Of a stretch of DNA of 35,642 nt, positions 3,820 to 31,332 are shown piece by piece. The first letter of the stretch is position 1. Every line of letters starts with the position of its first letter. The position numbers and the translations under genes are program-made. Where the stretch lies: assembly GCA_029055625.1 (NCBI GenBank), contig JAIDCY010000098.1, positions 1-35,642 on the forward strand. Reading direction: 5' to 3'. The stretch is from Ruminococcus sp. (GTDB lineage Bacteria > Bacillota > Clostridia > Oscillospirales > Ruminococcaceae). Below the pieces are notes generated by a model that was given only the letters and a program-made list of their open reading frames with translations, did no database searches and was not told where the DNA came from.

Positions 3820-5163
3820 TTAATTCTTTACCATGAGTACAACACATTCAACGTGTTTAGTACGTGGGAAAAGGTCAGCACCGCATACTTTTTTAACGTC
3901 GTAACCTGACCGGCTGAATATTTCCGCATCTCTCGCACACGTTGCAGGATTACAGGAAATCATTACTATCTTATCGGGTTCAGTATCCGTAATAATGCGG
4001 ATAGTCTCCGGCGTACAGCCTTTGCGTGGTGGGTCTATAACGATTATGTCGGGTTTCATACCCAGTTCAAAGAAAACTTTTCCGGCATCTCCGCAGTAAA
4101 AACCAGCATTTCCGATACCGTTTGATTTTGCGTTATTACGGGCATTTTCTACCGCTTCCGGTACTATCTCAATACCGATTACTTTTCCGGCTTTCTCCGC
4201 CATGGATAATCCGATTGTACCTGCTCCGCAGTAGAGGTCAGCTATTACGTCATCCGGAGCAGGTGAGGCAAATTCAAGGGCTTTCCTGTAGATTTTTTCC
4301 GCCTGTACCGTGTTCACCTGATAGAATGACTGTACGGAAATTTTTACCTTATTACCACACATATTATCTGAAATAGTATCGCTACCGTACAATGTAATAC
4401 ATTTACTGCCCATTATAACATTGGTTCTTTCGGGATTCACGTTAATTACTATACTTTTTACTTCCGGAAATTTGGTTGTAATAATGCGACATAAAGCGTT
4501 AAACTGTCTTGAAACGTCTTTCCGTACGACTATACAAAGCATTATCTCACCGGAATACGTCCCCTGCCTGATGTATACGTGACGCACTATCCCTGTATGC
4601 GTAAGCTCCGAGTATACGGATATTTTATGCAGATTTATATATTCAATTACGGTATCGAGAATATCACGGAAAATGACAGGTTGTAACTTACAGTCGGAAA
4701 CCGGTATAACTCTGTGGCTTCTTTCCGCATAAAATCCGCTTATAACTTTACCGTCCGAGACCGTCAGCAGATACTGTGCCTTGTTTCTGTAACGTTCGGT
4801 ACAACCGGCTTTTATGAACTCTTCGTATTCCGGAGCAAGTCCGCCGATTCTCCGGAAAGCGTCTTTAATGATACCGTCTTTTATACGACATTCCGCATCA
4901 TAGCTGATATGGCGGAACACGCACCCACCGCACTTACGATATACCGGACAGTCGGGGGTTATCCTGTCAGGCGACGGCGTTATAACTTCGTCCACTATTC
5001 CGTATGCGTAACTTTTCAGTACTTTTACTATCTTTACCCTGCATACGTCACCTGTAGCGGTATCCGGTACGAATACAGCCATTCCGTCTACCCGTCCTAC
5101 TCCGTTCCCCTCTGAAGTGATACCGGTTATTTCAACGTTCACAAACTGATTTTTTTCAGGCAT
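3820..5163 (-). CDS. rlmD: TRAM-domain 23S rRNA (uracil-5-)-methyltransferase, RlmD/RumA family
   Basis: This SAM-dependent enzyme methylates C5 of a uracil in 23S rRNA. The N-terminal TRAM domain spans about 4-60. Iron-sulfur cysteines lie in CPVYRKCGGC, with a further Cys in the DAECRIK stretch. Motif FYQVN precedes the SAM-binding motif DLYCGAGTIGLSMA, then IDPPRKG and the catalytic cysteine in MISCNPATCARD near the C-terminus. At 447 residues it has the normal family length. The ATG at 5163 has GAGGAG eight bases upstream, placed inside the end of the hemZ-like gene; the two reading frames overlap by 25 bp, so they are translated from one message. Which uracil is modified cannot be told from sequence: Firmicutes members may do U747, U1939 or both. 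Confidence 0.88.
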   Translation of the reverse strand: MPEKNQFVNVEITGITSEGNGVGRVDGMAVFVPDTATGDVCRVKIVKVLKSYAYGIVDEVITPSPDRITPDCPVYRKCGGCVFRHISYDAECRIKDGIIKDAFRRIGGLAPEYEEFIKAGCTERYRNKAQYLLTVSDGKVISGFYAERSHRVIPVSDCKLQPVIFRDILDTVIEYINLHKISVYSELTHTGIVRHVYIRQGTYSGEIMLCIVVRKDVSRQFNALCRIITTKFPEVKSIVINVNPERTNVIMGSKCITLYGSDTISDNMCGNKVKISVQSFYQVNTVQAEKIYRKALEFASPAPDDVIADLYCGAGTIGLSMAEKAGKVIGIEIVPEAVENARNNAKSNGIGNAGFYCGDAGKVFFELGMKPDIIVIDPPRKGCTPETIRIITDTEPDKIVMISCNPATCARDAEIFSRSGYDVKKVCGADLFPRTKHVECVVLMVKN

Positions 5164-6611
5164 TTTATAAGCTCCTCTTTTTTCGTCATGAGATTATCAA
5201 AATTACTTATATACTCGTAAGGATATTTATAATTATGAATCCTCGTTATTTTTTTGTTATCCGGATAAACTAATTTTGTAGAAGCTCCGCCACCTGCTCC
5301 TATAATAGTCTGTGTTTCGTCCATGATGTATATATTATAGTAACTCTCGTAACCCTTTTTTGCATACCCGATATTTTCGAGATTTCCTACCGTGTTTTTC
5401 TGACGGTACATATAATAAGGCTGATAATCGCTTGTCATGAGTTTCTGTATACTGTAATCCACCATTTCCTGAGCAGGATTAGTAATATTTTCCAACCCCT
5501 GGGCGAACAGGTTTGAAGAACGTTTCAGCGTAAGAGTATGTATGGTAATGCTTTCCGGTGAGATGTCAACAATCCTGTCAAGAGTGTTCCGGAAACTTTC
5601 CGGCGTATCTTCAGGCAATCCGGCGATAAGGTCAGTATTTATATTACGGAATCCCGCTTTTCTTGCGAGTTCGTATGCTATTAACGTATCTTCTGCGGTA
5701 TGCCTTCTGCCTATTGCCTGCAGTACGTCATTGTTTAACGTCTGCGGATTTATTGAAATCCTGTCCGCACCGAGTGACTTTATTATATGCAACTTCTCTT
5801 CCGTAATAGTATCAGGTCTGCCAGCCTCGAAACTATATTCCCGTATATTATCAAGGTCAAAATTTTTCTGTACACACTCCATAATAGTACGTATATCCTG
5901 AGCAGGTATGGCGGCAGGAGTTCCACCGCCGAAGTAAACCGTATCAACCGGAGTATTATTTTCTTTTATCATATAGCCTATTATCTCAAGTTCCCGACAC
6001 AGACACCTTACATAATCGGGTATGAGTTTCCCTGCCGATTCTATCGAGTGCGACACAAACGAACAGTAACTACATCTTGAAGGACAGAACGGTATGGATA
6101 TATAAAGGCTTACCGCTTTATGGTTGATATTCTCAAGTATCGGCATCTGATTTACGGCGGTATCGTATGCGAGTTTTAACTTCTCCGGTGAAAGTTCGTA
6201 CTTTTCCGTAAGTATTTCCCGGATTTCTGAAAATTCTGCTCCCCGTTCCATCAGTTCCGTTACTTTCTTTACCGGTCTTATACCTGTCATCATACCCCAC
6301 GGCGTGCTTATACCGGTAACGTCTTTCAGTATATGATATATAAGTCTGCAAAGTTCGTGCTCTGTGTACTTTTCGTCAATGGGCTGTATATTTTTTTCAC
6401 TCTGATATTTTTTACCGTCAATGCATATCTGTGTGAATATCCTGTTATTTTCAACTCCTGCGACTACATAATTATTACCTTTCGCATTTTCCGGATTTTC
6501 TGAAAACTGAAATTTCTTTACAGGATAAAACATCTTCAATATTGATTCTGTTTCATATTTAAAAGAATTTCCAATCAAAACCACCGGCATTTTATTAATA
6601 TTATTATCCAT
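5139..6611 (-). CDS. hemZ: Radical SAM coproporphyrinogen dehydrogenase, HemZ-like
   Basis: This is a 490-residue radical SAM protein of the HemN/HemZ group. The 4Fe-4S/SAM motif is CPSRCSYC (CxxxCxxC) near residue 180, after a variable N-terminal domain of about 150 residues that is typical of HemZ. FGGGTPAA, the SAM-binding GGTP loop, follows, and then the TIM-barrel strands NTDLIAGLP. HemZ homologues in Clostridia lie in the same recJ-relA-MBL neighbourhood, which supports the name. The real substrate is uncertain, because many anaerobes with this gene lack a full haem pathway. Its ATG overlaps the TAA of the upstream MBL gene by one base (TAATG), implying coupled translation. Confidence 0.85.
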   Translation of the reverse strand: MDNNINKMPVVLIGNSFKYETESILKMFYPVKKFQFSENPENAKGNNYVVAGVENNRIFTQICIDGKKYQSEKNIQPIDEKYTEHELCRLIYHILKDVTGISTPWGMMTGIRPVKKVTELMERGAEFSEIREILTEKYELSPEKLKLAYDTAVNQMPILENINHKAVSLYISIPFCPSRCSYCSFVSHSIESAGKLIPDYVRCLCRELEIIGYMIKENNTPVDTVYFGGGTPAAIPAQDIRTIMECVQKNFDLDNIREYSFEAGRPDTITEEKLHIIKSLGADRISINPQTLNNDVLQAIGRRHTAEDTLIAYELARKAGFRNINTDLIAGLPEDTPESFRNTLDRIVDISPESITIHTLTLKRSSNLFAQGLENITNPAQEMVDYSIQKLMTSDYQPYYMYRQKNTVGNLENIGYAKKGYESYYNIYIMDETQTIIGAGGGASTKLVYPDNKKITRIHNYKYPYEYISNFDNLMTKKEELIKCLKKISL

Positions 6612-7240
6612 TATTTTCTGAATCTCCTGAGATATGGATTTGAATTTCTTTCGTATTCAAGTTCCGTATTATCACCGTGTCCCGTCAGGACTTTATAATT
6701 TCCTTCGAGATTATACAGCTTTTCCAGTGACTGCACCATCATTTCAGGATTTCCGCCGTCGTAAGTGGTTCTGCCTATCGAACAGCAGAAAAGAGTATCA
6801 CCGGAAAAAATTACGTCCTCACAGATATAACACACGCTACCCATAGAGTGACCCGGAGTATGCATTACTTTGAAATTACAGTCACCGTCGGAAATAATAT
6901 CGCCGTCGTGTATAATTTTATAATCACTCACGGGGCAGAAATCTGACCATGAAATCAAATCTGAAAGTGATAATACCGAACTTGTCAGCATAGGAGCATC
7001 ATTTTCATGTATATATACTTCCGACCCTGTTTTTTCCACTATCTCCGAAACACCGTTCATATGGTCATAATGTCCGTGTGTCAGGAGTATCTTATTTAAC
7101 TTCAGTTTCTTCATACTAAGAAATTCGTAAAGTAAACGTGCATTTCCGCCGACGTCAACCGCTATACATTGACCTGCTCCGGTTTCCGCAACAAAACAAT
7201 TAGCACGGAGTTCACCGAGTTGTAAAGTATGGATTTTCAT
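6611..7240 (-). CDS. Metallo-beta-lactamase-fold hydrolase (glyoxalase II-like)
   Basis: A compact 209-residue MBL-fold protein. The metal-binding signature THGHYDHMNG (HxHxDH) is near residue 55, HTPGHS supplies the next histidine, SGDTLF the bridging aspartate and TGHGDNT the last histidine. The length fits short hydroxyacylglutathione-hydrolase-like proteins without the extra C-terminal domain. In Clostridia a gene of this type sits between relA and hemZ; its physiological substrate is not established. The start directly abuts the relA stop (TAAATG), with a strong AAGGAGG Shine-Dalgarno inside the 3' end of relA. Confidence 0.87.
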   Translation of the reverse strand: MKIHTLQLGELRANCFVAETGAGQCIAVDVGGNARLLYEFLSMKKLKLNKILLTHGHYDHMNGVSEIVEKTGSEVYIHENDAPMLTSSVLSLSDLISWSDFCPVSDYKIIHDGDIISDGDCNFKVMHTPGHSMGSVCYICEDVIFSGDTLFCCSIGRTTYDGGNPEMMVQSLEKLYNLEGNYKVLTGHGDNTELEYERNSNPYLRRFRK

Positions 7241-9568: not shown

Positions 9569-11596
9569 TTATTTTCCTGATTTCTTCTTAAGTACGATAA
9601 TTACCGGTGCGGAACAGAAATCAGATTTTTTTGTGGTAACCGCCTTTTTTATTACGTTATCGGCGAAAGATACCGTAACTATACCTAACTGACGGAAAGC
9701 CTCCACAATAACGTTCAATTTACAGTAGTTTATTTCCTTAAAGGATTTCAGGTAAAGTTTATCAGAGGATATGCCTGCTCCCGACGGTATAGCTGTATAT
9801 ATCTTTACCGCTTCTTTACGGTCAGGTATCATTCCGTGATAATAATTTTCCGGTAAATCCTCACCTCGTGTGAAAGATTCAAAAATTTCAATGGCGGAAA
9901 AATATTTATTCTGATTGAATCCGTGTGGTCGTATATCCTGTATAAAAATATTTACGCTCATATTTCCGTTGAATTCATTGATTCCGAGTGTAACTATCAT
10001 ATCGCATAAATCGCCGGTCTGAACGGTCAGCGATTCCGGAGACATGAAAAACGCCAGAGCTTCCAGACGGTGCTTTTCAATCTCTATCCGTAATTTACTG
10101 TGCTTGCCCTCAGAAAGTGGCATTATCTCATTAATACGGACGTTCTGTACTAAAAAACAGGGTTTTTCATTATCTTCTCCGTATGGTTCAAGTACACTGA
10201 GGTCTTCTATATTTTTAATATTAATCATATCGGCAGTAATCACAGCATCTGCCTGTATCGTATAACGTGGCATCTGCTTATGATTTTCCAGTGCATACCT
10301 TTCAAGCAGATTTCTGAAATCTTCCGTCATACCCTGTTTTATCGTAAATCCGCCTGCACTCTTATGACCACCGAATTTTTCGAGAGTATCGGAAGTGTAT
10401 GTGAGAGCATCAAACACGGAAAAATCGCCGAATGCACGGGCAGAACCTCTTATCTCACCGTCTTCCGTCTCCGTTGCTATGAAACATGGTTTTCCGTATC
10501 GTTCTTCAATACGTGATGCTACTATCCCGACTACTCCGTGATGCCAGCCCTTACCACATATGAATATTACCCTTTCACGTATAATTTCCGGTTTTTCGTC
10601 AATCATACGGTAAATATCGCTGATTATCAGGTTTTCTTCCTGCCGACGCTTTGTATTGAGTTCGTCGAGTTCCTGTGCTATAATAAGTGCATTTTCGTAA
10701 TCGTCACACATGAAAAGTTTCAGTGCCTGCTCCGGATTTCCGAAACGTCCGGAAGCGTTGATACGTGGTGCGATTCTGTAACCGATTGAATCGCTGTCGA
10801 TATCCTTTCTGATATTACATACTTTCTTCAACGCAATCAATGCCGGTCTGTCTGTACGGTTTATAAGGCTTATCCCATGATTTACAATATATCTGTTCTC
10901 ACCGGTAAGGCTTACTACATCGGCGATAGTCGCAACCGCTGCCAGATCGGCGAACTGTTCGAGAGCGATTACATAATTTCCACCTTCGAGACCGGCGACG
11001 AGTTTCAACGCAAGTCCCGCACCGCACATATATTTAAAAGGTGATGTGCAGTCATGGCGGTGTGGGTCAACAACAGCCTCCGCACGTGGTAACGTCTCGC
11101 CTGGCTGGTGATGGTCTGTTATGACAAGTTTCATACCGAGAGAGTATATATATTCCGCTTCTTCAATCGCAGATATACCGTTATCGACGGTAAGAATGAG
11201 TTCTGCACCCTGTGAGTGTATGTAGTCTATCGCCTGCCGGTTAAGACCGTAACCCTCAGAGCGTTGTGGGATATAGTACATAGCTTCCGCATCCAGTCCC
11301 ATAAAATACGAGTACATAATTACAGTCGACATTATGCCGTCGCAGTCGTAATCACCATAGACACATATTTTTTTCCGGCTACTGATATATTCGTTTATTA
11401 TATCCACCGCTTTGTCCATATCCATTATAAGAAACGGGTCTGAAAGTTCTTTTATATTGATACTGTCAAAAACTTCCTCCGGTGTCCTGAAACCCCTTGC
11501 TGTAAGTACGGTTGCCGTCAGCGGTGATACGATACATTTTTTTTCAATATTCCGTATAATATCGCCGTCCGGATTGTTTACAACCCAGTTTTTCAT
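9569..11596 (-). CDS. recJ: Single-stranded-DNA-specific 5'-3' exonuclease RecJ
   Basis: This DHH-family nuclease acts in recombination and mismatch/base-excision repair. Of its 675 residues, the N-terminal DHH domain carries YGDYDCDGIMS, TVDNGI and VITDHHQPGE, the Mn-binding motifs. The DHHA1 domain has the RNA/DNA-binding GGHKSAGGF. An OB-fold region and a C-terminal extension (about 560-675) follow, usual for Firmicutes RecJ. It is the first gene of the leftward recJ-relA-MBL-hemZ-rlmD operon and has a near-consensus promoter about 40 bp upstream. A GGAGGA site precedes the ATG. One of only two GATC sites found in the window lies inside this gene (10945-10948). Confidence 0.95.
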   Translation of the reverse strand: MKNWVVNNPDGDIIRNIEKKCIVSPLTATVLTARGFRTPEEVFDSINIKELSDPFLIMDMDKAVDIINEYISSRKKICVYGDYDCDGIMSTVIMYSYFMGLDAEAMYYIPQRSEGYGLNRQAIDYIHSQGAELILTVDNGISAIEEAEYIYSLGMKLVITDHHQPGETLPRAEAVVDPHRHDCTSPFKYMCGAGLALKLVAGLEGGNYVIALEQFADLAAVATIADVVSLTGENRYIVNHGISLINRTDRPALIALKKVCNIRKDIDSDSIGYRIAPRINASGRFGNPEQALKLFMCDDYENALIIAQELDELNTKRRQEENLIISDIYRMIDEKPEIIRERVIFICGKGWHHGVVGIVASRIEERYGKPCFIATETEDGEIRGSARAFGDFSVFDALTYTSDTLEKFGGHKSAGGFTIKQGMTEDFRNLLERYALENHKQMPRYTIQADAVITADMINIKNIEDLSVLEPYGEDNEKPCFLVQNVRINEIMPLSEGKHSKLRIEIEKHRLEALAFFMSPESLTVQTGDLCDMIVTLGINEFNGNMSVNIFIQDIRPHGFNQNKYFSAIEIFESFTRGEDLPENYYHGMIPDRKEAVKIYTAIPSGAGISSDKLYLKSFKEINYCKLNVIVEAFRQLGIVTVSFADNVIKKAVTTKKSDFCSAPVIIVLKKKSGK

Positions 11597-12294: not shown

Positions 12295-12333
12295 AAAAAA
12301 AAGTTCCGGAGCAGGTAGAGTTCCGGACTTTTT
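12295..12333 (+). terminator. Intrinsic terminator containing a GGAGCAGG octamer
   Basis: An A-rich left arm ending in GTTCCGGA pairs, with one bulge, with TCCGGAC followed by a T run (12329-12333). The loop side holds GGAGCAGG at 12308-12315. It ends the transcript of the frameshifted gene ahead of the sigma-factor gene. Confidence 0.65.
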
Positions 12334-12406: not shown

Positions 12407-12868
12407 GTGTCAATCGATTTGCACAGTCAGTATGACAAGATATACAGATATTGTTATATCCGTATCCGTAACCGTGAAACTGCGGAAGATATTACACAAG
12501 AAACTTTCCTTCGCTTTCTTGAGAAACCGCAGTATCACAATATAAATAAAGACCTTCAGTATCTGTATACGATAGCCGGTAATCTGTGTACGGATTTTTA
12601 CCGCAAAAAGCGTACGGAAGAACTTCCCGACGATATACCTGATATTTCCTGTAACGAGGAAACTATAATTGAAAACGTCGCACTGAGTATCGCACTTGAA
12701 AAGTTACCGGCAGAGGACAGGGAAATAATACTTTTAAGATACGTGAATGAAGAACCGGTCGGAGTGATAAGCAAACTGTATAATATATCAAGATTTGCTC
12801 TTAACCGCAGGATAAAGAAGATTCTTGAATTTCTGCGGAACGAGTTTGAAAGGGAGGATTTTAAGTGA
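12407..12868 (+). CDS. RNA polymerase sigma factor, ECF-like sigma-70 family
   Basis: A 153-residue alternative sigma factor. Region 2 spans about 5-70 (YDKIYRYCYIRIRN, then TAEDITQETFLRFLEKP and LYTIAGNLCTDFYRKKR). Region 4 (about 100-150) has LPAEDREIILLRY and a helix-turn-helix. There is no region 3, as in ECF factors. It starts at GTG 12407 with GGGAGG upstream, and its TGA overlaps the GTG of the next gene by four bases. The downstream membrane protein is the likely anti-sigma partner (inference from context). Its own promoter was not identified. Confidence 0.85.
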   Translation: MSIDLHSQYDKIYRYCYIRIRNRETAEDITQETFLRFLEKPQYHNINKDLQYLYTIAGNLCTDFYRKKRTEELPDDIPDISCNEETIIENVALSIALEKLPAEDREIILLRYVNEEPVGVISKLYNISRFALNRRIKKILEFLRNEFEREDFK

Positions 12869-14271
12869 ATAAAAAGTCAAAAAAGACTTTAAAAAACGCC
12901 TTCAATATTCCCGAACCAACAAGAAAAGATGAATTTCTTAACAGTCTTCCGGTCAGACAAAAAAAAAGTCATTCATTTAACGTACCTTTGTACATTTCTA
13001 CGGCAGTAACGGCGGTAATAGTAATCGGGATATGGGGTGGTATAAAAAATCTCCCACACTTTGACCCACCACAAATTACGGATACGTCGATATATAGCGA
13101 AACTACAGAACAGTTACGGCGTACGGAAATTACATCAGTTCAGACGACGGAAACGGTTAAATCGTCCGTATCGGAATACGTTACAGCTACTGCCACTTCT
13201 AAAACGTCCGCAACCTCTGCAATATCTGAAATTACTTCCGGAAGCTCCGTTACAACTGCAAGCTCTTCCAACTCAAGAACTACTACTGAAACTTCCGGAA
13301 CAGGTACGATATTTACGGAAACTGAACCGGAAACCCTGACTTCCGTTACTACCGGAAAAAACAATACTACTTCATATATATATACAACGGAAATATTTAC
13401 TACAGAAACAACTTTCCGACAAGAAACGGAATCGCCGGAAACTACTTTAAAAACTACAAAAACGTTCCGTACTACCACAAACACTACACGGACACATTTC
13501 ACCATTACCGCCACGACGACAGCAACCACTACAACCACTACCACCGAATCAACCGTAAACGTTACTACTGTAACCACTACCGAAGAACTGGTCAACGACG
13601 TTACTACTACAATATCTATTGAAAACGAACCGCCTTTTTATGAAACAACACAGACATCAGGTGCTACAATAGATGCTCCGCCAGTACCGATTACTACTAC
13701 ACCTGCTCCACCGTCTGGCGGAAACTCACATATTGATTTTACAGTAGTTCCGGCTGTCCGGTACTATCCGGAGGGTGAAATATATTTCACCGACAGTACA
13801 GAAGAAGATAATATACCACCGTCCAACAACGCACCGGATTATACAGGAATATTCCGGCAGATGATAACGGATTCTGATTTGATAGCGATAGTAGAGGTAG
13901 ACGAGATAATATATACCGGTATCGACGGCGTACCGTATACGCAGGAGAATGTAACAGTAAAAGATGTGATATACGGTGATATGCGGAAAAATTCGAGAAT
14001 ATCAGTATACTGTCAGGGCGGATATATACCGGCAGAGGAATATTTCATGAACGTATATGAGGAAAATGTAACGGTATTTGATTACGCCGGAAACAGAAAA
14101 TTTTCCGAGGCAGGCGATACGTATATGTGTTTCCTGAAAAAAAGAGACAACATTTATTATCTGACGGGATTAAACGACATAAGCAAGTTTGAAATCCATG
14201 AAGATTATTTTGTAAATATAAATAATGGGTATTCACTTACTTTACAGGAAATAGAAAACTTTTTAAATTAA
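12865..14271 (+). CDS. Membrane protein with Thr/Ser-rich stalk, putative anti-sigma factor/sensor
   Basis: This 468-residue protein starts with a short basic cytoplasmic region (1-40), followed by one transmembrane helix (41-60). A very long Thr/Ser-rich stretch (about 75-255, many TTT and TTE runs) and a Pro/Thr linker (about 260-290) come next. The C-terminal domain (about 325-468) contains SDLIAIVEVDEI, TVKDVIYGDM and FLKKRDNIYYLTG. A GTG start overlaps the sigma-factor stop, so the pair is translationally coupled. The layout (cytoplasmic N-terminus, one helix, stalk, outer domain) resembles transenvelope anti-sigma sensors such as RsgI, but I see no RsgI N-terminal domain. The stalk may be glycosylated or cross the wall (inference). 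The 151-codon Val-rich frame on the other strand is only a shadow of its Thr codons. Confidence 0.7.
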   Translation: MNKKSKKTLKNAFNIPEPTRKDEFLNSLPVRQKKSHSFNVPLYISTAVTAVIVIGIWGGIKNLPHFDPPQITDTSIYSETTEQLRRTEITSVQTTETVKSSVSEYVTATATSKTSATSAISEITSGSSVTTASSSNSRTTTETSGTGTIFTETEPETLTSVTTGKNNTTSYIYTTEIFTTETTFRQETESPETTLKTTKTFRTTTNTTRTHFTITATTTATTTTTTTESTVNVTTVTTTEELVNDVTTTISIENEPPFYETTQTSGATIDAPPVPITTTPAPPSGGNSHIDFTVVPAVRYYPEGEIYFTDSTEEDNIPPSNNAPDYTGIFRQMITDSDLIAIVEVDEIIYTGIDGVPYTQENVTVKDVIYGDMRKNSRISVYCQGGYIPAEEYFMNVYEENVTVFDYAGNRKFSEAGDTYMCFLKKRDNIYYLTGLNDISKFEIHEDYFVNINNGYSLTLQEIENFLN

Positions 14272-19069: not shown

Positions 19070-19716
19070 TAAATCTGATTTTCGATTACGACGGCACTAT
19101 TCACGACAGCATGAAAACATACGCTCCGGCATTCCTTAATACGTGTAAATGGCTGTGCGACAGTGGGTATATAGAAAACGCCGAGTATACCGACAGACAA
19201 ATAAGTTACTGGTTAGGGTTCAACTCGTCGGATATGTGGGAACAGTTTCAGCCGGATTTATCGCCGGAAATACGGGAAAAAGCACGTATAATGTTAGGAC
19301 AGGATATGGCACAGCGAGTAGAAAACGGAGAGGGAAAATTATACGAAAATGCGGAGCAGGTACTTGAAACGTTGAGAGATACCGGATATAACCTTATATT
19401 CCTGAGTAACTGCCGTATGGAATACATGGAACGTCATAAGCGGGTTTTCGGACTGGACAGGTATTTCAGTAAATTCTACTGTTGCGAAGGATTCGGTTTC
19501 ATACCGAAGTATGAGATATTCAGGAAAATAAAACCTGCTCATAACGGAGATTTTATAATAATCGGTGACAGATTTCACGATATCGAAACAGCGGTAAAAA
19601 ACGGTATTAAATCAATCGGTTGCGGATACGGATACGGTACACCGGAAGAACTTACCGAAGCTGATATAATCGTGAATGACATAACAGAAATCCCCGAAGC
19701 AGTAGATAGATTATAA
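19066..19716 (+). CDS. HAD-superfamily (subfamily IA) phosphatase, candidate riboflavin-pathway phosphatase
   Basis: A 216-residue HAD hydrolase. Motif I is [10 protein letters not shown] with both catalytic Asp residues, a helical cap follows (about 20-90), motif II is LSNC, motif III the Lys of IPKYEIF, and motif [10 protein letters not shown]. The phosphoglycolate-phosphatase-like group has this size. The four-base overlap with ribH, and its place as the last gene before a strong terminator, tie it to the riboflavin operon. Riboflavin synthesis needs removal of phosphate from 5-amino-6-(5-phosphoribitylamino)uracil, a step done by HAD enzymes and usually not encoded in rib operons. The assignment to that step is inference. 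Confidence 0.85.
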
Positions 19717-19865: not shown

Positions 19866-22820
19866 TCAGTCGGTACGTAACGCTTCTACAGGGTCTTTTT
19901 TCGACGCAACCCTTGACGGTATAACACCGGCGATAAGTGTTAAAGCCATACTTATTACTACAAGTACAACTCCGGCGACTGGTGGTACATAAGCGTTGAG
20001 ATTGTCAAGGGTGGTCAGAGAGTGGATAATAAGATTAATAGGGATAGTAAGCAGTACAGATGCACCAATGCCGATAAGTCCGGCGGTGAGACCTACAATC
20101 ATAGTTTCCGCATTGAAAACCGTTGAAACATCATGTTTTGATGCACCTATCGCACGGAGTATACCAATTTCCCTTGTACGCTCCAGAACAGAAATGTAAG
20201 TAATAATACCAATCATGATAGAAGAAACAACAAGAGAGATACCTACAAAGGCGATAAGAAGATAAGATATACCGCTGATAATGCTTGTAACCGACGACAT
20301 AAGGAGTGCGACGTAATCGGTATAGTGTATTACGTCATCTTCAGAGACGGAATTGTTATATTCCCCGATAATATCAGCAATATCGTCTTTATCCTCAAAA
20401 GATTTAACGTAAATGCTGATACTTGACGGGTCAGAAATATCCGCATTGCCGAGGAGTTTTAAATTATCGTCATAAGTGGAAGATGATACTTCAAGCGGAA
20501 TAAAGTTATCGTAAATTTTTACGTAAAAATCATCAATTATGTTCATCCGGGTTAAACGTCGGGCGAGTTGTTCGTCGGTATATTCAGAAAGTTTTCTTTC
20601 CGTTTCCGCAGTAGATTGTATCATATACTGAGCGGTAACCACACCCATAAGTGCCTCATTGAAATCTTCTTCACTCATGGTCTTGATGTATTCCGTAACC
20701 TGTGAACTGTCAACGCCCATCTGTTCGGCGTAAAAACCTGCAACAGCTGATTGTTTAGCCTCGTCGGACATTGCAGAAATACTGTTCTGTACGTCTTTTA
20801 ATAACTGTTCCTCATCAGGTAATGCGGAAACATACCGGAAAACCTCCGCTTTTTTAGCATCATCAGCGGATTTTATGAAATTTTTGGCGAAAGAAATTTT
20901 TTCTTCTGTATCGGGTTCTTCGTAATCGTCAGTAAGGAATACAGAACCCGTAATAATATCTGTATCAGGATTATCAATCTGTTCTTTCATAATGTCGCTG
21001 TTACCGGACTGTTCTATTACATACTTTGTAAGCATGGGAGTATAACCGATATATCCGGAAATCATACCCATATCAGTATCTTCGTTAGGCTTTATGAATC
21101 CGACTACTTTTAACTCCGTACCGATACTATCGGATGTGTACAGATAATCAAGACCGGTTTCAGTAGTCGTCAGGTTTGTATAACCGTTGCCGTTTTCGTT
21201 AGGCTGATAGTATTCACATGGAAGAATAAGTTTGAATTTTTTGTCAAGTATTTCATCTGCATTCCATTCAAGAGTACCATAATTTTCTATATTCTCACCA
21301 CTCATAGCGGATTTAAGGATTCTTGAAAATTCTTCCGGTTCTTTAAGACCCATTGCGTAGGCGATAATATCAGGAAGTTCGTTGTTTTTCGTAAGTACTA
21401 CCACAATTTCATCATAATTTTCAGGTAATCTTCCGCTCACTACTTCATACTGATTTTTAATAAGTTCGCTTACCTGCGTATCGTCTTCATTACCTAACAT
21501 TTCCGACATAACGTCAAGACCCATCATTGATAACTGCATACTTGCCATAGGGTTAGCACTGGTAACGTTTGAAGTATCGGATATTCCGAGGGCGTGGGTA
21601 TACATTTCCATAAAGTCAACTTTCATTATAGTACCGTCAGGTGTTTCCGTAAATACGGGAATATCGACGTCATAGGTATAAGAAATAGCGGTAGATTTAT
21701 CCCGGACGGTATCATTTTCTTCAAGGAATTTCTTAAAGTCTTTCATGTTGTTAATCTGACGTGCGGAGGTGTTCATAGTATTGAACATATCGTAAATATC
21801 GACGTTTGAATATACCTTGTTGTTGTCGAAAGTTTTATTTTCGTCAATATTCTGTTGCATCATTGAAGCCATCATAGCGGATGTATCAGCGGTTTCACGG
21901 GTAATCTGTAGCGGATAGGAAGAAAGCGTTTCCTCCTGAACGTTGTTGATGTAGTCGTTTATACCGGTTGACAGCGATAAGATAGTAGCGATGCCGATAA
22001 TACCGATTGAACCGGCAAAAGATGTCAACAGGGTACGTCCTTTTTTTGTCATAAGATTGTTAAGTGAAAGAGATAATGCCGTAACAAATGACATAGAGAC
22101 ACGTTTTTTACGTTGCGGTTTAAGTTCTTCCGCCTGCTCCGGAGTGTAAGGGTCGGAATCGTCTGTAAGCTGACCGTCTTTAATGCGTACAATTCTTGTA
22201 GCATACTGTTCAGCGAGTTCCGGGTTATGAGTGACCATTACAACAAGTTTATCCTTAGCTATTTCCTTAAGAAGTTCCATAACCTGTATACTTGTTTCAC
22301 TGTCGAGAGCTCCGGTAGGTTCATCAGCGAGAAGTATATCGGGATTGTTGATTAACGCACGGGCTATCGCTACACGTTGCATCTGACCGCCTGACATCTG
22401 ATTCGGTTTTTTGTGTAACTGATTTCCGAGACCTACTTTTTCAAGAGCTTCTTTAGCACGTCGACGCCGTTCCGCCTTTGATACTCCGGATATAGTCAGA
22501 GCGAGTTCAACGTTAGCAAGTACGGTCTGATGAGGAATCAGGTTGTAACTCTGAAAGATAAACCCGATAGAATGATTTCTGTATGCGTCCCAGTCCCTGT
22601 CCTTATACTTCCTGGTAGAAACGCCGTTGATAATGAGGTCACCGGAAGTGTAATGGTCAAGACCGCCTATGATATTAAGCATAGTAGTTTTGCCACAACC
22701 AGAATGTCCCAGTATAGCTACAAACTCATTTTCACGGAACGTAACATTAACGCCGTTGAGAGCGGTTACAATGTTTTCACCGTTACCATACTGTTTAAAG
22801 ATGTCTTTTAATTGTAACAA
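19866..22820 (-). CDS. ABC transporter, fused ATPase and MacB/FtsX-type permease
   Basis: One chain holds an ATPase and a membrane half. The ATPase (about 1-225) has Walker A GHSGCGKTT, signature MSGGQMQRVAIARAL and Walker B ILLADEPTGALDSE, the LolD/MacB pattern. Then comes a helix (TLLTSFAGSIGIIGIATIL), a large extracytoplasmic domain of about 500 residues, and three C-terminal helices with the FtsX-like SVLERTREIGILRAIGASK. The family uses ATP to move substrates mechanically or export peptides. I chose TTG at 22820: AAAGGGTG lies six bases upstream, and a start at the upstream in-frame ATG (22880) would fall inside the -35 box. GTG at 22829 is an alternative. Expected length is about 984 residues. 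It is a single-gene transcript. Confidence 0.88.
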   Translation of the reverse strand: MLQLKDIFKQYGNGENIVTALNGVNVTFRENEFVAILGHSGCGKTTMLNIIGGLDHYTSGDLIINGVSTRKYKDRDWDAYRNHSIGFIFQSYNLIPHQTVLANVELALTISGVSKAERRRRAKEALEKVGLGNQLHKKPNQMSGGQMQRVAIARALINNPDILLADEPTGALDSETSIQVMELLKEIAKDKLVVMVTHNPELAEQYATRIVRIKDGQLTDDSDPYTPEQAEELKPQRKKRVSMSFVTALSLSLNNLMTKKGRTLLTSFAGSIGIIGIATILSLSTGINDYINNVQEETLSSYPLQITRETADTSAMMASMMQQNIDENKTFDNNKVYSNVDIYDMFNTMNTSARQINNMKDFKKFLEENDTVRDKSTAISYTYDVDIPVFTETPDGTIMKVDFMEMYTHALGISDTSNVTSANPMASMQLSMMGLDVMSEMLGNEDDTQVSELIKNQYEVVSGRLPENYDEIVVVLTKNNELPDIIAYAMGLKEPEEFSRILKSAMSGENIENYGTLEWNADEILDKKFKLILPCEYYQPNENGNGYTNLTTTETGLDYLYTSDSIGTELKVVGFIKPNEDTDMGMISGYIGYTPMLTKYVIEQSGNSDIMKEQIDNPDTDIITGSVFLTDDYEEPDTEEKISFAKNFIKSADDAKKAEVFRYVSALPDEEQLLKDVQNSISAMSDEAKQSAVAGFYAEQMGVDSSQVTEYIKTMSEEDFNEALMGVVTAQYMIQSTAETERKLSEYTDEQLARRLTRMNIIDDFYVKIYDNFIPLEVSSSTYDDNLKLLGNADISDPSSISIYVKSFEDKDDIADIIGEYNNSVSEDDVIHYTDYVALLMSSVTSIISGISYLLIAFVGISLVVSSIMIGIITYISVLERTREIGILRAIGASKHDVSTVFNAETMIVGLTAGLIGIGASVLLTIPINLIIHSLTTLDNLNAYVPPVAGVVLVVISMALTLIAGVIPSRVASKKDPVEALRTD

Positions 22821-22851
22821 TAAATTCACCCTTTCGTTTAAGATAGAAATT

Positions 22852-22880
22852 ATTATAACATAACTTGAAAAATAAGTCAA
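22852..22880 (-). promoter_or_regulatory. Sigma-A promoter of the ABC transporter
   Basis: On the minus strand TTGACT (22875-22880) and TATAAT (22852-22857) are 17 bp apart. The start point is expected near 22845, leaving about 25 nt of leader before the TTG start codon. Confidence 0.8.
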
Positions 22881-23008: not shown

Positions 23009-24142
23009 TTATTTCATACCGTACTTACGGAGCAGGTTTTGAATTTTTTCGTGTGGGTCAATAATCTTACTGATAGAAACATCATGATTGATAGCCTCGA
23101 TAAAATAGGCGATATACTTTGAAACATCGACTTCATGAAACCACGGACGCTCCAGAAGTTCAGGGGTTCTGTATGTAAGATTAGTACCGAAAACGCCGTC
23201 AATGTATCCGTCATTATAGGCTTTGTCGAATTTTTCAAGCCCGTTAGTAAATATAGCGTAAGTGGCATATGTAAAGATTCTGCCTGCTTTCTTTTCCTTG
23301 AGAGCATAGGCGAGGTCAAGCATGGATTCGCCGGAAGAAATGATGTCATCGGCAACAAAAACGTCCTTACCCTCTACGGAGTTACCGAGATATTCATGAG
23401 CGACAATAGGATTTCTGCCGTTAACGATAGTGGAATAGTCACGGCGTTTATAAAACATACCCATTTCAACACCCAGTACGGAAGCATAGTACATATTCCG
23501 GTTTAACGCTCCCTCGTCCGGACTTACCACCATAAACTTTTCTTTGGAGAGGTCAATATCTCTGATGTCTTTCAATAAAGTTTTGAGTACCTGATATGTA
23601 GGCATAACGTTATCAAAACCCATAAGCGGTACTGCATTCTGAACCCGTGGGTCGTGAGCGTCGAAAGTAACTATATTAGATACGCCCATAGCTTCAAGCT
23701 CCTGTAAAGCACACGCACAGTCAAGCGATTCTCTGTAACTTCTTCTGTGCTGACGTCCGCCGTAAAGATTCGGCATGATAACTGTTATACGGTGAGCCTT
23801 ACCGCTTGCCGACTGGATAATTCTTTTGAGGTCCTGAAAATGGTCATCAGGAGACATCGCATTCTGCATACCGAAGTAATCATATTTGATATTGTAGTTT
23901 CCGACATCTATAATAATAAATAAGTCCTTACCCCTTACGGTAGACTTTATCAGACCTTTGGCATCACCTGACGAAAAACGGGGACATTCGCTCTCAACAA
24001 GAAAAGTTTCCGTATTGTTTCCGTGCCACCTGATAAGATAATCATTGATTTTGTCGCCGAGTTCCTTTACGCTTTCCATAGCGATAACGCCGATAGGTGC
24101 GACGTTCGGCTGACTGAATAAATTTTCACTTGAAGCTGTCAT
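23009..24142 (-). CDS. prs: Ribose-phosphate pyrophosphokinase (PRPP synthase), long divergent form
   Basis: It makes PRPP from ribose 5-phosphate and ATP for nucleotide, His and Trp synthesis. At 377 residues it is longer than the usual 310-320, with about 20 extra N-terminal residues and insertions. Visible family motifs are MPNLYGGRQHRRSYRESLDC (the canonical form has RQDRK), FDAHDPRVQ, VVSPDEGALNR in place of the usual PDxGG loop, and the PRPP-binding VADDIISSGESMLD, where the canonical motif has TGGT. The changes in the PDxGG and PRPP loops mean activity should not be assumed, but I recall such long forms as common in Clostridia. It lies 30 bp after the pyrophosphatase gene. Confidence 0.82.
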   Translation of the reverse strand: MTASSENLFSQPNVAPIGVIAMESVKELGDKINDYLIRWHGNNTETFLVESECPRFSSGDAKGLIKSTVRGKDLFIIIDVGNYNIKYDYFGMQNAMSPDDHFQDLKRIIQSASGKAHRITVIMPNLYGGRQHRRSYRESLDCACALQELEAMGVSNIVTFDAHDPRVQNAVPLMGFDNVMPTYQVLKTLLKDIRDIDLSKEKFMVVSPDEGALNRNMYYASVLGVEMGMFYKRRDYSTIVNGRNPIVAHEYLGNSVEGKDVFVADDIISSGESMLDLAYALKEKKAGRIFTYATYAIFTNGLEKFDKAYNDGYIDGVFGTNLTYRTPELLERPWFHEVDVSKYIAYFIEAINHDVSISKIIDPHEKIQNLLRKYGMK

Positions 24143-25098: not shown

Positions 25099-27030
25099 AT
25101 GCCTGTATACAGAGTTGCCGTAATAATAGCCGGAATAGAACATAGTTACCAGAGCGAGATATTGAACGGAATATCAGAATCGGCGAAAGAGTGTTCAATA
25201 AATGTGGAAGCATTTATATCGTTTATAGGGTCAATGGGCAATCCTGTACATGATACCGGAGAATTCAACATATTCAATCTGCCGGATTTCAGCAGTTATG
25301 ACGGTGCGATACTGATTACTAATACAATAGACTATCCGCCGGTAGTAAATAATATCATAAACCGGATAAAACAGGCGGAGATTCCGGCGGTGAGCATAGA
25401 CAACGATGTATCAGGACTTTATCATATAGGGATAGACAATAAAAAAGCTATGCGGAAGATAACGGAACATCTGATAAATGAACACGGCTTCCGGACGTTC
25501 AGTTATATTTCCGGACCGGCAGACAATCCGGAGAGTGCGGACAGGCTGAAGTCATTTAAGGAAGTACTAAAAGAAAACGGGATAACAATTGGCGAGGATA
25601 ACATATATTACGGAGATTTCCGGTCACCTTCAGGAAAAAACGGAGCGGAATACTTCCTGAGACAGTGGAAAGAGTTACCGGACGCTCTGATATGTGCAAA
25701 TGACGTTATGGCAACTACTGCAATAAATCGGCTGACGGAAGCAGGTTACAGAATACCGGAGGATATAGCAGTAACAGGGTTTGACCATACGTACAATACG
25801 CATAATTACCAGATAGAAATAACATCAGTAAAAAGACCTTTGAGGTATTCCGGAAAGCTTGCCTGTGAGATGTTGTACAGACACTTCCGGAACGAGGAGC
25901 AGGCACGGAGTATAACGCTTGAAATGTCGGCACATTTCACGGAGAGTTGCGGATGTCCGGTTAAAAATCCGGTGGATGTAAATATATTCAGACAGTTTAA
26001 CTATACGAACTATACAAGATTTGAGAAGACACAAAGTTATATGACAATGTTCAATCATCTTTCATGCGTACTGCTGGGGTGTAATACTTATGAACAGTAT
26101 ATCGAATCATTGAAGGATTTTGTAAAGGAGATACAACCGGAAGAGTTTTATTTTTGTCTTTGTGAAAACTGGAAAGCAGAGTCACTGACAGATGAGAATG
26201 CATATCAGGAAAGCGAAGATGCACCGATACCGTCAGAATATACGGAAAAAATAATAGTACCGATAGCATACAGACAAGGGATATTTTACGAAGAGATGAT
26301 AATAAACCGGAGAGAGATATTACCGGCAGTAGCGAGAGTGAATAAATCGGGCAGATTTTACTATCTCGTACCGTTGCATTTCGGTAAAAGATGTTTAGGA
26401 TACATGGCGATAATGAATCCGAGAGTAAACATACATAATTCAATGTTTGAGACGTTATGTATAAGTATAAGCAATTCACTGGAGAATATACGTAAATTAA
26501 TGTGTCTGAATACGGCGGTAAAGCATCTGCGGAAACTTTACGCACAGGATACTTTATGCAGAATATATAACCGTAACGGATTCATGAACGCCACGAGGGA
26601 AACTTATAACGAGTGTATAGAGAAAAAACGGGAAATAATGTTAATGTTCATAGACCTTGACGGACTTAAGATAATTAATGACACATTCGGTCACGATGTG
26701 GGAGACGTTGCGATATGTAACATAGCAGACGTTATCAGGGTATCATGTAAAGAAGATGAAGTATACTGTCGGTTCGGCGGTGACGAGTTTATAGTATTCG
26801 GGGCAGGATATGGTGAATATGATGCAATGAAACTTACCAGACGTATAGAAGAGAACATAAAAAAGATAAACGATACAAAAATATACCCGTTTGAACTGAA
26901 TGCGAGTACAGGATATATAATCGCCCGACCTGAACCACACGAGGATATATTTCATTTCGTGACGGAAGCGGACAAAGTGATGTATAAACAGAAACGGCGG
27001 AAAAAATTATCAAAATATCTGAAAACGTAA
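25099..27030 (+). CDS. Diguanylate cyclase with LacI-type ligand-binding domain
   Basis: A 643-residue protein. The N-terminal half (about 1-290) is the periplasmic-binding-protein-like ligand domain of LacI repressors, with VYRVAVIIAGIEHSYQSEIL, GIDNKKAM, FRTFSYISGPADNPES and DALICANDVMATTAINRL, but there is no helix-turn-helix and no signal peptide. A middle GAF-like region (about 300-470) follows. The C-terminal GGDEF domain (about 485-640) has LYAQDTLCRIYNRNGF, MFIDLDGLKIINDTFGHDVGD and an intact RFGGDEF. The canonical RxxD inhibitory site is replaced by KEDE. It should make cyclic di-GMP in response to an intracellular sugar-like ligand (inference). Start ATG at 25099, AAGGGG ten bases upstream. 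Confidence 0.9.
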   Translation: MPVYRVAVIIAGIEHSYQSEILNGISESAKECSINVEAFISFIGSMGNPVHDTGEFNIFNLPDFSSYDGAILITNTIDYPPVVNNIINRIKQAEIPAVSIDNDVSGLYHIGIDNKKAMRKITEHLINEHGFRTFSYISGPADNPESADRLKSFKEVLKENGITIGEDNIYYGDFRSPSGKNGAEYFLRQWKELPDALICANDVMATTAINRLTEAGYRIPEDIAVTGFDHTYNTHNYQIEITSVKRPLRYSGKLACEMLYRHFRNEEQARSITLEMSAHFTESCGCPVKNPVDVNIFRQFNYTNYTRFEKTQSYMTMFNHLSCVLLGCNTYEQYIESLKDFVKEIQPEEFYFCLCENWKAESLTDENAYQESEDAPIPSEYTEKIIVPIAYRQGIFYEEMIINRREILPAVARVNKSGRFYYLVPLHFGKRCLGYMAIMNPRVNIHNSMFETLCISISNSLENIRKLMCLNTAVKHLRKLYAQDTLCRIYNRNGFMNATRETYNECIEKKREIMLMFIDLDGLKIINDTFGHDVGDVAICNIADVIRVSCKEDEVYCRFGGDEFIVFGAGYGEYDAMKLTRRIEENIKKINDTKIYPFELNASTGYIIARPEPHEDIFHFVTEADKVMYKQKRRKKLSKYLKT

Positions 27031-28625: not shown

Positions 28626-29939
28626 TCAGTTTACGGAAACCGCCTGACGTCCCATCTCGTTATATCTCAGTTTGATTTTATCATAGTCATAAGCGATATT
28701 ATTATATAACGGGTCGGAGACATATATAAGTCCGTTGTCCAGGTCATAACCGGTAAGTACAACGCAATGTTCATAGGCTCGCCATTGTACCTGCTCACCT
28801 GCCGGAGTAGTCCATATGCTTGTAAGATACGATTTATGCAGATTGCCACTTGTAATCCATATCAGAACCGGTCTGTCATTATCAATATATTCAGTCAGCA
28901 GACCGTCAAAATCAGTGCCGGTAATATTACGTGCCATACTGTATGCCCCGATATTGTTTAAGTATCTGTTGGCAGTTGTGACGATACACGGGGCGTAACA
29001 ACCATACGAATATTCAGATGCGGGATTACCTGCAAAAGTCGTTCTGAAATCCGCACCATAATAAATACCGTTTTCCCAGTAAAAATCCATTTTAGGAAGA
29101 TAATTTCTTGCCATATCAGTTTTATCTGCCGGATATCCAAGATGATTAAGAAGTATTGTTAATGATGTTACTTCACAGCCTGTCGGCAGTTCCGGATTCT
29201 GTGCTATATTTTTTACATCAATAATTTTTTTGTTTTCCTTGATAACTGGTGGCGGTGGTTCTGATACGTCCGAAATCTGCCATTTTACCGTATCCGCATA
29301 ATAATCATATCGGGAAATTTCAATCTGAACCAGTAACGCCGATATAATATCTTCCTCAATATCCTGTTTTACTTCGTTCATTGATACATTAACAGATTGA
29401 TTGATATATTCAACTCCCGTTACTGTTCCGTAAAGTCCGGAAATAATATTCAGTAACAAAACGGAATTTTCAAAAAAGCCGTCATTATAAATTTCCGTAT
29501 ATCTGACAACGATTTCTTCATCAAAATATATACTCAGAAAATCTTTTAATTCGTTTACGGAACGTGCGGTAAATATTCTGTCTTCTTCATTGGAGTTAAA
29601 AAATTCTTCAGTATATCCACTGCTGAACATAGCATAACTGACGTTGAAATCTATTGATTTTTCCGTTTCAAGAAGTGATTTCTGCATTGAGCATAAATCA
29701 AATATATCAAGTCTTCCGTCATTGCAGAAGTCCGCATTTTCCCAGCTTTCAGGAGTTGAATTTTCGTCAGTAAGAAGCCATTTCTGAAACGTAACTATAT
29801 CCGACAGATTAAAAACACCGTCTGAATTGACATCGCCTGTTATATCCGTATTTTCTGCCCTGACCGGAAATGATGGTAATATTAATATACTTCCTGTAAA
29901 AATTAACATTAAAAAATATGTACTGATTTTTTTAAACAT
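28626..29939 (-). CDS. Secreted dockerin protein with C39-like cysteine peptidase domain
   Basis: A 437-residue exported protein. The signal peptide is 1-28 (hydrophobic core TYFLMLIFTGSILIL, cleavage near VRA). The dockerin is near the N-terminus (about 34-92), with loops GDVNSDGVFNLSD and ADFCNDGRLDIFD. A middle region (about 100-225) and a PPPP linker come next. The C-terminal papain-like C39_2 domain (about 240-437) has the catalytic Cys in LPTGCEVTS, the His in YEHCVVLTGYD and the Asp in YVSDPLYNN. The triad is complete, so peptidase or peptidase-like activity is expected, perhaps on the cell wall or surface proteins. A near-perfect promoter precedes it and a terminator follows: a one-gene unit. 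Placement of the dockerin at the N-terminus is unlike the usual C-terminal position. Confidence 0.87.
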   Translation of the reverse strand: MFKKISTYFLMLIFTGSILILPSFPVRAENTDITGDVNSDGVFNLSDIVTFQKWLLTDENSTPESWENADFCNDGRLDIFDLCSMQKSLLETEKSIDFNVSYAMFSSGYTEEFFNSNEEDRIFTARSVNELKDFLSIYFDEEIVVRYTEIYNDGFFENSVLLLNIISGLYGTVTGVEYINQSVNVSMNEVKQDIEEDIISALLVQIEISRYDYYADTVKWQISDVSEPPPPVIKENKKIIDVKNIAQNPELPTGCEVTSLTILLNHLGYPADKTDMARNYLPKMDFYWENGIYYGADFRTTFAGNPASEYSYGCYAPCIVTTANRYLNNIGAYSMARNITGTDFDGLLTEYIDNDRPVLIWITSGNLHKSYLTSIWTTPAGEQVQWRAYEHCVVLTGYDLDNGLIYVSDPLYNNIAYDYDKIKLRYNEMGRQAVSVN

Positions 29940-29975
29940 ATAATTTTTCTCCGATAAATATTAAAATTATTTCCC

Positions 29976-30004
29976 ATTATAACATAAAAGAATTTATTTG
30001 TCAA
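29976..30004 (-). promoter_or_regulatory. Consensus sigma-A promoter of the C39-dockerin gene
   Basis: On the minus strand a perfect TTGACA (29999-30004) and a perfect TATAAT (29976-29981) are separated by 17 bp, about 37 bp ahead of the ATG. Confidence 0.9.
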
Positions 30005-30062
30005 GTCAAAGAAAAAATTATAACAATAAACATTTCCGGAGCAGGTGAAAAATTTTTTATTA

Positions 30063-30743
30063 TCAGTTAATCTGAAAATATTTATCTAAGTCTTCCGGAG
30101 TTACCGGTTCACAACCCAGTCCGTACCTGAATACTTCTATCTCCTTGATTTCCGGTAAATTAAGTGCCTCTATATCGTTAATCATTTTGATTACGTTTTC
30201 TGCGGAACGGTTTTCAAGCATTATCTCAACAGTCTGTCTGTATGGTTTCTTTGGATATGGAGAAGTAGGATTAATATTACTATACTGCGATACCGATTTT
30301 ATATTATCCACACCCCTGAAATCGTCGGCTGTCCAGATGCGTTCCGGAACGCTGTACTGATGTTTTATTTCGATATTGATTCCGGAACTGTCAAAACGGA
30401 AGGCATCCTCAATAGTAGTCGTACAGGGTGTGAATTCGTCTACAACTATCGGACTTTTTACCGGATATTCGTCTGAACTGTTATGGATAAGCAGTTCCTT
30501 TTTCATCATGGACAGGTCAAAGATATCAAGTACGCCGTCTTCGCAGAAGTCAACCGCCTGATAGTTATTAAGTGTTACATCTTTTCCGATAATCCAGTTC
30601 TGAAACAAAGATACATCTGCAACAGTGAATTTGCCGTCACCGTTGGCATCTCCCATAATAAAATCTTCTGCCGTACTGTATGCCGGTACTAATGCCGTCG
30701 CCGTAAGCAGTACGGATATAACAGCTGATACAAATTTTTTCAT
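30063..30743 (-). CDS. Secreted dockerin protein, tandem paralogue 2
   Basis: 226 residues with a signal peptide (1-26, core AVISVLLTATALV, cleavage near STA). The dockerin (about 30-88) has GDANGDGKFTVAD and VDFCEDGVLDIFD. A C-terminal domain (about 105-226) of unknown function contains RIWTADDFRGVDNI and ENVIKMINDIEALNLPE. The protein is homologous over its whole length to the gene 19 bp upstream, and the two dockerin regions share 71 identical bases. The C-terminal domain carries no known catalytic motif. A GGAGCAGG octamer lies just past its stop. Confidence 0.85.
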   Translation of the reverse strand: MKKFVSAVISVLLTATALVPAYSTAEDFIMGDANGDGKFTVADVSLFQNWIIGKDVTLNNYQAVDFCEDGVLDIFDLSMMKKELLIHNSSDEYPVKSPIVVDEFTPCTTTIEDAFRFDSSGINIEIKHQYSVPERIWTADDFRGVDNIKSVSQYSNINPTSPYPKKPYRQTVEIMLENRSAENVIKMINDIEALNLPEIKEIEVFRYGLGCEPVTPEDLDKYFQIN

Positions 30744-30762
30744 GTTAATTACTCCTTCTTAA

Positions 30763-31332
30763 TCATATTAATCCCGGTTCCCAGCTTGTAGGTCTTACCA
30801 TATAGATTTCCTCAATGTTCAGACTTTCTATGTCGTGAATCATTTTCAGTACGTTTTCTTTACTACGTTCTTTGAGGAAAATGTGTAAAGTCTGCCTGCT
30901 CCATGCCGGTGGTGTAACATCTTGTATATAATCAATGTTTTCCACATCTTTGAAATCTTCGGCAGTCCATACACGTTTCGGATATTGTTGTTTCATGGTT
31001 ACTACTACCACGTAATTCACAAAAACATCAATACTGGTATTAATATATGGTCTGAACTCGTCGGTACAGTATTCTTTTTTCATCATGGACAGGTCAAAGA
31101 TATCAAGTACGCCGTCTTCGCAGAAGTCAACCGCCTGATAGTTATTCAGTGTTACGTCTTTTCCGATAATCCAGTTCTGAAACAGTACTACATCTGCAAC
31201 CGTAAACTTTCCGTCACCGTTTGCATCGCCCATAATTACATCTTCCGCACCGGTGGATATTCCCGTCACGTTTACCGCAGTAATTGCCGTCGCCATGACC
31301 GCAATTGCTATCCTTTTTAACTTATTTTTCAT
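30763..31332 (-). CDS. Secreted dockerin protein, tandem paralogue 1
   Basis: 189 residues, the first gene of a tandem pair. The signal peptide is about 1-29 (core IAIAVMATAITAV). The dockerin (about 33-90) is nearly identical to that of the next gene. The C-terminal domain is shorter, with RVWTAEDFKDVENI and ENVLKMIHDIESLNIEE matching its neighbour. It lacks the roughly 20-residue Thr-rich segment found after the dockerin in the paralogue. GAAAGGAGC precedes the ATG. Function unknown. Recent duplication or gene conversion is likely. Confidence 0.85.
   Translation of the reverse strand: MKNKLKRIAIAVMATAITAVNVTGISTGAEDVIMGDANGDGKFTVADVVLFQNWIIGKDVTLNNYQAVDFCEDGVLDIFDLSMMKKEYCTDEFRPYINTSIDVFVNYVVVVTMKQQYPKRVWTAEDFKDVENIDYIQDVTPPAWSRQTLHIFLKERSKENVLKMIHDIESLNIEEIYMVRPTSWEPGLI

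Follow-up and report, generated by a model that had tools for sequence, protein, structure and literature searches.

The window analyzed here, a stretch of 35,642 nt (contig JAIDCY010000098.1 of assembly GCA_029055625.1, Ruminococcus sp.; positions 1 to 35,642, forward strand), contains 19 copies of the octamer GGAGCAGG. The DNA word is real and strong, extends across the whole genome, and is restricted to certain lineages; its unit is a strict GAGCAGG core in a softer frame, CGGAGCAGGT. An earlier note on this DNA had named the octamer a candidate recognition word and held that a genome-wide count near Markov expectation would speak against it. Instead, the window's own assembly (G000; 2,505,683 bases in 151 contigs, 92% complete) contains 948 copies (461 forward, 487 reverse), compared to 44 copies (21 and 23) of a control word made of the letters of GGAGCAGG read backwards, a control which is itself codon-dependent, so that small enrichment ratios carry little meaning. 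The octamer has the highest z-score of all 8-mers both in the window and in 592 kb of the genome, where it occurs 240 times against 8.5 expected under an order-3 model. On average, there is one core per 1.5 kb and one octamer per 2.6 kb.

Core counts cover 605,842 bases of G000 and 449 kb of a relative, G039, and are set against order-3 backgrounds built after masking of GAGCAGG. The core occurs 404 times against 17.7 expected in the former and 201 times against 11.0 in the latter, while its 21 one-mismatch variants, when summed, show no near-miss excess in either genome (566 against 563.3 in G000; 407 against 422.1 in G039); we take this to mean that the core is recognized either in full or not at all. 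Individual core variants ranged from 0 to about 2 fold of expectation, with certain transversion neighbours scarcer than expected in G000 and G039, respectively (C4A, 0.40 and 0.23; G6C, 0.27 and 0; G7C, 0.30 and 0.43). An apparent depletion of near-miss words was gone once the word was masked before the background was built. The flanks are graded, with C in 50% of copies at position −2, G in 60% at −1, and T in 51% after the core, and these preferences are alike in co-oriented, antisense, and intergenic copies. The wider consensus reported earlier, CGGAGCAGGT, was borne out by 352 decamers in the own assembly, compared to 4 of its reversed control; against expectation, the decamer was counted 103 times for 1.4, its flank variants 108 times for 6.5, and its core variants 32 times for 24.8.

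It is very improbable that codon use, a recurring protein motif, or mutation bias gave rise to the excess. The earlier note had the word read in several frames within genes, which is correct, but use is uneven: co-oriented copies are mostly Gly-Ala-Gly or x-Glu-Gln-x, and the 91 Gly-Ala-Gly copies among the 158 co-oriented ones in our own-genome sample are what most favors a protein origin. The note's further claim that protein sequence offers no explanation nevertheless stands, given that exchanging synonymous codons within each gene yields only 23.2 co-oriented copies, compared to the 158 present, and 4.7 antisense copies, compared to 63; this shuffle is an imperfect null, as TCCGGAA, among other words, also lies above it. 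The similar flanks of intergenic and antisense copies likewise speak against a codon or motif origin. As to mutation, the core transversion neighbours that fall below expectation in both genomes could point to such a bias, but targeted repair or deamination predicts a strong depletion of transition neighbours, for which the lowest ratio was only 0.72. As most copies are lost on synonymous shuffling, whether they run with the gene or against it, the word acts at the level of DNA rather than protein or RNA, and an RNA-level function is unlikely, since the fold excess over the shuffle is at least as large for antisense as for sense copies. The octamer is not concentrated between genes in this sample, where 23 of 243 copies lie in the roughly 8% of sequence that is intergenic, a density about that in genes. 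Across 37,948 bases aligned between G000 and G039 (80% identity), 9 of 23 copies of the word were retained, compared to 64 of 319 for permuted words.

Conservation in related Ruminococcus, as the earlier note would have it, holds for part of the genus only, many congeners being without enrichment. Among 100 Ruminococcus genomes, the ratio of the octamer to its reversed control is 21 in G000 and G039, 14–16 in G027, G049, G078, and G090, and ≤1 in many others. The decamer discriminates more sharply across the genus: the five largest counts, set against the control, are 352:4, 339:4, 151:5, 133:2, and 106:13, with 59:0 in G090 and 51:0 in G049, while 243 genomes from other genera of the family have at most 47 decamers (control, 21). 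On trees of AddB, most of the strongly enriched genomes belong to one of two unconnected clades, the main one with 12 members and the second with 4 (G068, G064, G090, and G049); G025 and G086, with ratios near 4, fall outside both, and G053 and G014 provided AddB fragments only. Loci of the second clade that do not overlap, 45 kb in all, contain 6 octamers against 0.87 expected and 11 cores against 3.4. Its named AddB relatives put the window genome among Ruminococcus records, many labelled R. flavefaciens. A metagenome-assembled genome labelled Alistipes senegalensis (JAMPEF010000001.1) carries a Ruminococcus AddB, 74% identical to that of the window genome, and is probably mislabelled.

Some protein probably reads GGAGCAGG to recognize own DNA in repair or DNA exchange. 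The description of a Chi-like or uptake-like recognition word thus survives in outline, with codon, protein, and RNA explanations having failed, but its two options are not separated by our data. We rank a Chi-like AddAB signal first, an uptake sequence second (nearly as likely), and another DNA reader third. What is established is that the word exists, has a strict core, and works at the DNA level, and that an AddB is encoded; beyond this we infer, as a tentative first choice held with less than even confidence, that GAGCAGG in its frame marks own DNA in this lineage and serves its AddAB, a helicase-nuclease, as a Chi-type signal. In such a mechanism, AddAB would enter at a double-strand break and degrade DNA up to a correctly oriented word, where it would end its destruction of the DNA end and pass single-stranded DNA to RecA; the density of the word would limit the loss of own DNA, and word-free DNA would stay open to degradation.

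Several features agree with a Chi-type signal. The word is G-rich and asymmetric and ends in GG, as do the Chi words of S. aureus (GAAGCGG) and B. subtilis (AGCGG), and the over-representation typical of such a short asymmetric word was found for both core and octamer (404 against 17.7; 948 against 44). Like Chi of E. coli (GCTGGTGG) and the words of S. aureus, B. subtilis, and L. lactis, it combines a G-rich, strict core with chromosome-wide excess, and an AddB of the cognate type is encoded in the same genome (G000:C87, adjoined by an open reading frame (ORF) of AddA size). This AddB has TIGR02773 as its best family, albeit under the curated cut-off. AddB was found in 88 of the 100 genus genomes (own included) and in all 55 good assemblies, none at the curated cut-off. 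A conserved, easily switching reader would explain why the same core word occurs in two separate AddB clades (12 and 4 rows).

Other results weigh against the AddAB reading, beginning with polarity. The absence of strong polarity noted earlier was confirmed on the G039 contig, using its first 360 kb (GC skew positive in 17 of 18 bins, with plus taken as leading): 104 of 156 heptamers (67%) lie on the leading strand, compared to 64% for permuted words matched in base composition (104 words). There is thus no replication polarity beyond base composition on this contig, the leading-strand share being explained by composition given what permuted words attain. Heptamer copies align with the direction of replication in addition to that of the genes (Fisher p = 0.0007), and octamers divide 81 to 30 in six skewed own contigs. 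In contrast, 63 of 77 Chi sites in a 350 kb control from E. coli K-12 were leading on presumed replichores. In G019, 39 of 40 copies seemed to lie on the plus strand, but this looks like an artefact, as a second tabulation of that genome lacks the minus-strand copy of the first, and it was dropped as proof of Chi polarity. Also unlike Chi, the word is enriched in only part of the genus although AddB is near-universal, many congeners having an AddB of nearly the same pocket without word enrichment; it has softer extra flank bases, and we know of no Chi word with soft flanks. Its octamer reaches 27.8-fold of expectation, compared to 1.7-fold for E. coli Chi under the same order-3 model.

A further difficulty is that no replacement 7- or 8-mer of comparable strength was found in samples of G013, G019, G020, and G030 or in pooled named loci; these samples ranged from 56 to 225 kb, in which a weak word could escape, and G002 (17 kb) and G032 (20 kb) were excluded as too small. 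Moreover, TCGGGA/TCCCGA lies 2.5–8.7 fold over the order-3 model in all eight single-genome Ruminococcus samples (the own genome as the window, L001–L040, and L130; loci of G039, G002, G078, G013, G019, G030, and G020) and in both pooled sets (named loci within L208–L287), with or without GAGCAGG enrichment, compared to only 1.2 fold in E. coli. On the G039 contig, its copies do not clearly favor one strand (117 to 105). TCGGGA may be a separate genus-wide signal, and any genus-wide Chi would fit it better than GAGCAGG.

The AddB sequences themselves offer a lead. F210 of B. subtilis AddB is a residue of the Chi-binding site, according to the portion of PMC4824097 consulted, and AddB residue 206 lies four residues after the one aligned with it. 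In the 17 most enriched genomes with data, this residue is N in 14, T in two (G076 and G025), and S in one (G026), compared to N in 4 of the other 68 genomes with data; a gap occurs in 3 genomes. Four enrichment indices were compared with tree correction; among 3,326 AddB residue tests, N206 ranks 97, 1, 120, and 9 by these, with t = 1.8, 3.2, 1.7, and 2.6, the best index being the decamer ratio (t = 3.2, rank 1). The link between N206 and enrichment, which favors the AddAB reading, is a fragile lead, not a result. The rank swings from 1 to 120 with the index, and once the main clade is removed, N206 comes 40th of 3,086 with the octamer and 8th with the decamer. Columns of AddA, where no role is expected (60 genomes), reach 1.2e-6 with the decamer, compared to 6.9e-7 for N206, while with the octamer, the p-value of N206 is matched or beaten in 22 AddA tests. 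The residue was picked out after 23 pocket positions had been displayed, and it has exceptions on both sides: N occurs in G009 and G047, where the octamer is not enriched, while G076 and G025 are enriched with T. An independent-pair test had at most 6 pairs and no power. The scan of AddB pocket columns was set aside as suggestive but weak against the AddA null.

A possible alternative, to which we assign slightly less confidence than to the AddAB reading, is that GAGCAGG is a DNA uptake sequence, where a type IV pilus with ComEA and ComEC prefers tagged DNA and transformation has raised the word genome-wide. The lack of strand polarity beyond composition fits this, as do the strand-neutral over-representation and the soft flanks around the core. 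The mismatch profile also fits: under an equal-base-composition model, the decamer is over-represented 265, 10.2, 2.2, and 1.4 fold with increasing mismatch load. In the table of PMC1939737, from the part of that source available, the uptake word of A. pleuropneumoniae has 438 copies for 3 expected, then 947/86, 2,635/1,252, and 14,278/10,796, while E. coli Chi starts at 1,008 for 151 and 8,855 for 3,579; the ratios we computed from this table are 146, 11, 2.1, and 1.3 for the former and 6.7, 2.5, 1.6, and 1.2 for the latter, and the decamer is thus near the uptake word and unlike Chi. However, the whole near-miss excess lies in the flanks and none in the 7-bp core, and a strict core of seven bases is unlike the three-base essential core that the accessible text of PMC3630211 gives for the Neisseria uptake word.

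The machinery for uptake is encoded in the own genome, as judged by family matches: a ComEC family protein, a ComEA-type domain over its cut-off, and two adjacent T2SSE-family ATPases, which, by their size and arrangement, we take to be PilB and PilT. A PilB-type match is present in all of the 20 most enriched of the 100 genomes, and the 13 genomes without one all have an octamer ratio ≤1.5 (p = 5e-5, no tree correction); but once the tree is allowed for, enrichment is only weakly tied to the pilus ATPase (t = 1.4 to 2.3), Fisher's test for the top 20 gives 0.065, and five sister pairs compared by eye differ little in enrichment. The 13 genomes lacking a PilB-type ATPase belong to several branches of the AddB tree and include some nearly complete assemblies. 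The presence of AddB, ComEC, and ComEA was discarded as a discriminator, as each is near-universal (88, 90, and 97 of 100).

Paired copies bear on the uptake reading in both directions. The exact 16-bp palindrome CCTGCTCCGGAGCAGG occurs five times in G000 (C11:9543, C17:7365, C75:7442, C105:16549, and C110:825) and twice in G039 (C7:6243 and C42:4110). Independent placement, by arithmetic on genome counts, predicts about 0.09 in G000, an expectation that the CC flank preference lifts several-fold by our estimate. A search for inverted pairs at gaps of 0–12 returned five in G000 and two in G039, every one of them at gap 0; lacking a loop, these are not terminators. Close word pairs show no surplus (12 found, 16.2 expected). 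Nor, as given above, do intergenic copies, which weakens the argument from terminators made in the earlier note. The consulted portion of PMC5031613 names sequence-specific uptake for Pasteurellaceae and Neisseriaceae only, both of them Gram-negative, and the literature searched held no report of an uptake word in a Gram-positive, which counts against this reading. Compared to the uptake signal sequences (USS) of Pasteurellaceae and the DNA uptake sequences (DUS) of Neisseriaceae, the word is thus alike in its strand neutrality beyond composition, very strong excess, core with graded flanks, decamer mismatch profile, and co-occurring ComEC, ComEA, and pilus ATPase genes, and unlike in its Gram-positive host, seven strict positions, lack of intergenic concentration, and in being known here from sequence alone. 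On this reading, which we hold at less than even odds, a Gram-positive uptake tag would have risen in two separate Ruminococcus branches, with a pilin or other receptor reading seven strict bases.

As a third and unlikely reading, the word could serve some other DNA reader, such as a protein of the nucleoid or of chromosome segregation, or a modification enzyme whose sites are selected to stay frequent. The spacing of the word is slightly more even than random (coefficient of variation 0.73–0.88 in five contigs, p 0.005 to 0.21); this and the five perfect palindromic double copies in G000 favor such a reader. The words of FtsK and SpoIIIE (KOPS and SRS) are likewise G-rich, of octamer size, and repeated along the genome, but these directional segregation words are strongly polar, whereas GAGCAGG shows no strong replication polarity. 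About 950 copies are also many for a segregation site, and methylation alone supplies no reason for enrichment. Low-density segments were considered as foreign DNA and set aside, as only one gap exceeds 6.5 kb in the own sample and the longest gap in G039 overlaps a 3,037-codon ORF.

We have filed GGAGCAGG under neither the Chi nor the uptake family, membership being proved for neither; it is not placed with Chi because polarity was tested and did not exceed what composition gives. Our literature search returned no report of this word, nor of Chi or uptake words in Ruminococcus. A 2021 paper (PMC8022716, in the part consulted) put the number of species with a known Chi word at only five. Either reading, if true, would provide a working handle for a fibre-degrading genus of the rumen and gut: a Chi signal would aid recombineering and explain which incoming DNA survives, while an uptake sequence would mean self-tagged gene exchange in the gut and offer a transformation tag. 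Enriched and non-enriched congeners are a ready comparison for finding the reader.

Within the window, all 19 copies were recovered at exactly the positions and strands first listed (9 plus, 10 minus), far above the low chance expectation claimed for them (mean 0.18 and largest 2 in 100 dinucleotide shuffles; 0.51 under an order-2 Markov model), and the six additional cores reported bring the total to 25 heptamers. Counted on ORFs, 17 of the 19 copies lie in genes (12 co-oriented, 5 antisense). The co-oriented minus-strand copies are at 4220–4227 in a tRNA uracil-5-methyltransferase-like gene (3820–5163, −), 5293–5300 in a radical SAM gene (5139–6611, −), 7173–7180 in a metallo-beta-lactamase-fold gene (6611–7240, −), 9774–9781 and 10726–10733 in a RecJ-like gene (9569–11596, −), 22133–22140 in an ABC/FtsX gene (19866–22880, −), and 30895–30902 in a gene without a Pfam match (30763–31332, −). 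Those on the plus strand are at 14508–14515 in a dockerin gene (14287–15369, +), 15647–15654 and 16586–16593 in a RibD-like gene (15599–16684, +), 19353–19360 in a HAD hydrolase gene (19066–19716, +), and 25896–25903 in a GGDEF gene (25099–27030, +). Antisense copies are found at 4256–4263 (+), which forms an inverted pair with 4220 in the same methyltransferase-like gene, at 13702–13709 (−) in the gene at 12865–14271 (+), at 14835–14842 (−) in the dockerin gene, at 16329–16336 (−) in the RibD-like gene, and at 23029–23036 (+) in a ribose-phosphate pyrophosphokinase-like gene (23009–24142, −).

The remaining two copies, 12308–12315 (+) and 30038–30045 (+), are both intergenic, as had been claimed. 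The first does lie in a terminator-like hairpin (about 12298–12333; z −4.2 on one strand and −4.7 on the other), which sits between two divergent genes and has T-tracts on both strands; however, most of its stem consists of a TCCGGA-type repeat, not of paired words. The second copy, described as just past a gene end, is indeed 17 bases past the stop codon of the minus-strand gene at 30063–30743, but folding there is not significantly better than in shuffles (z −1.0 and +0.9). Three neighbouring dockerin genes occupy 28626–33690, one with a C39-like peptidase domain, one in which no other domain was found, and one with LRR and transglutaminase-like domains, which suggests a cellulosome-linked secreted set.

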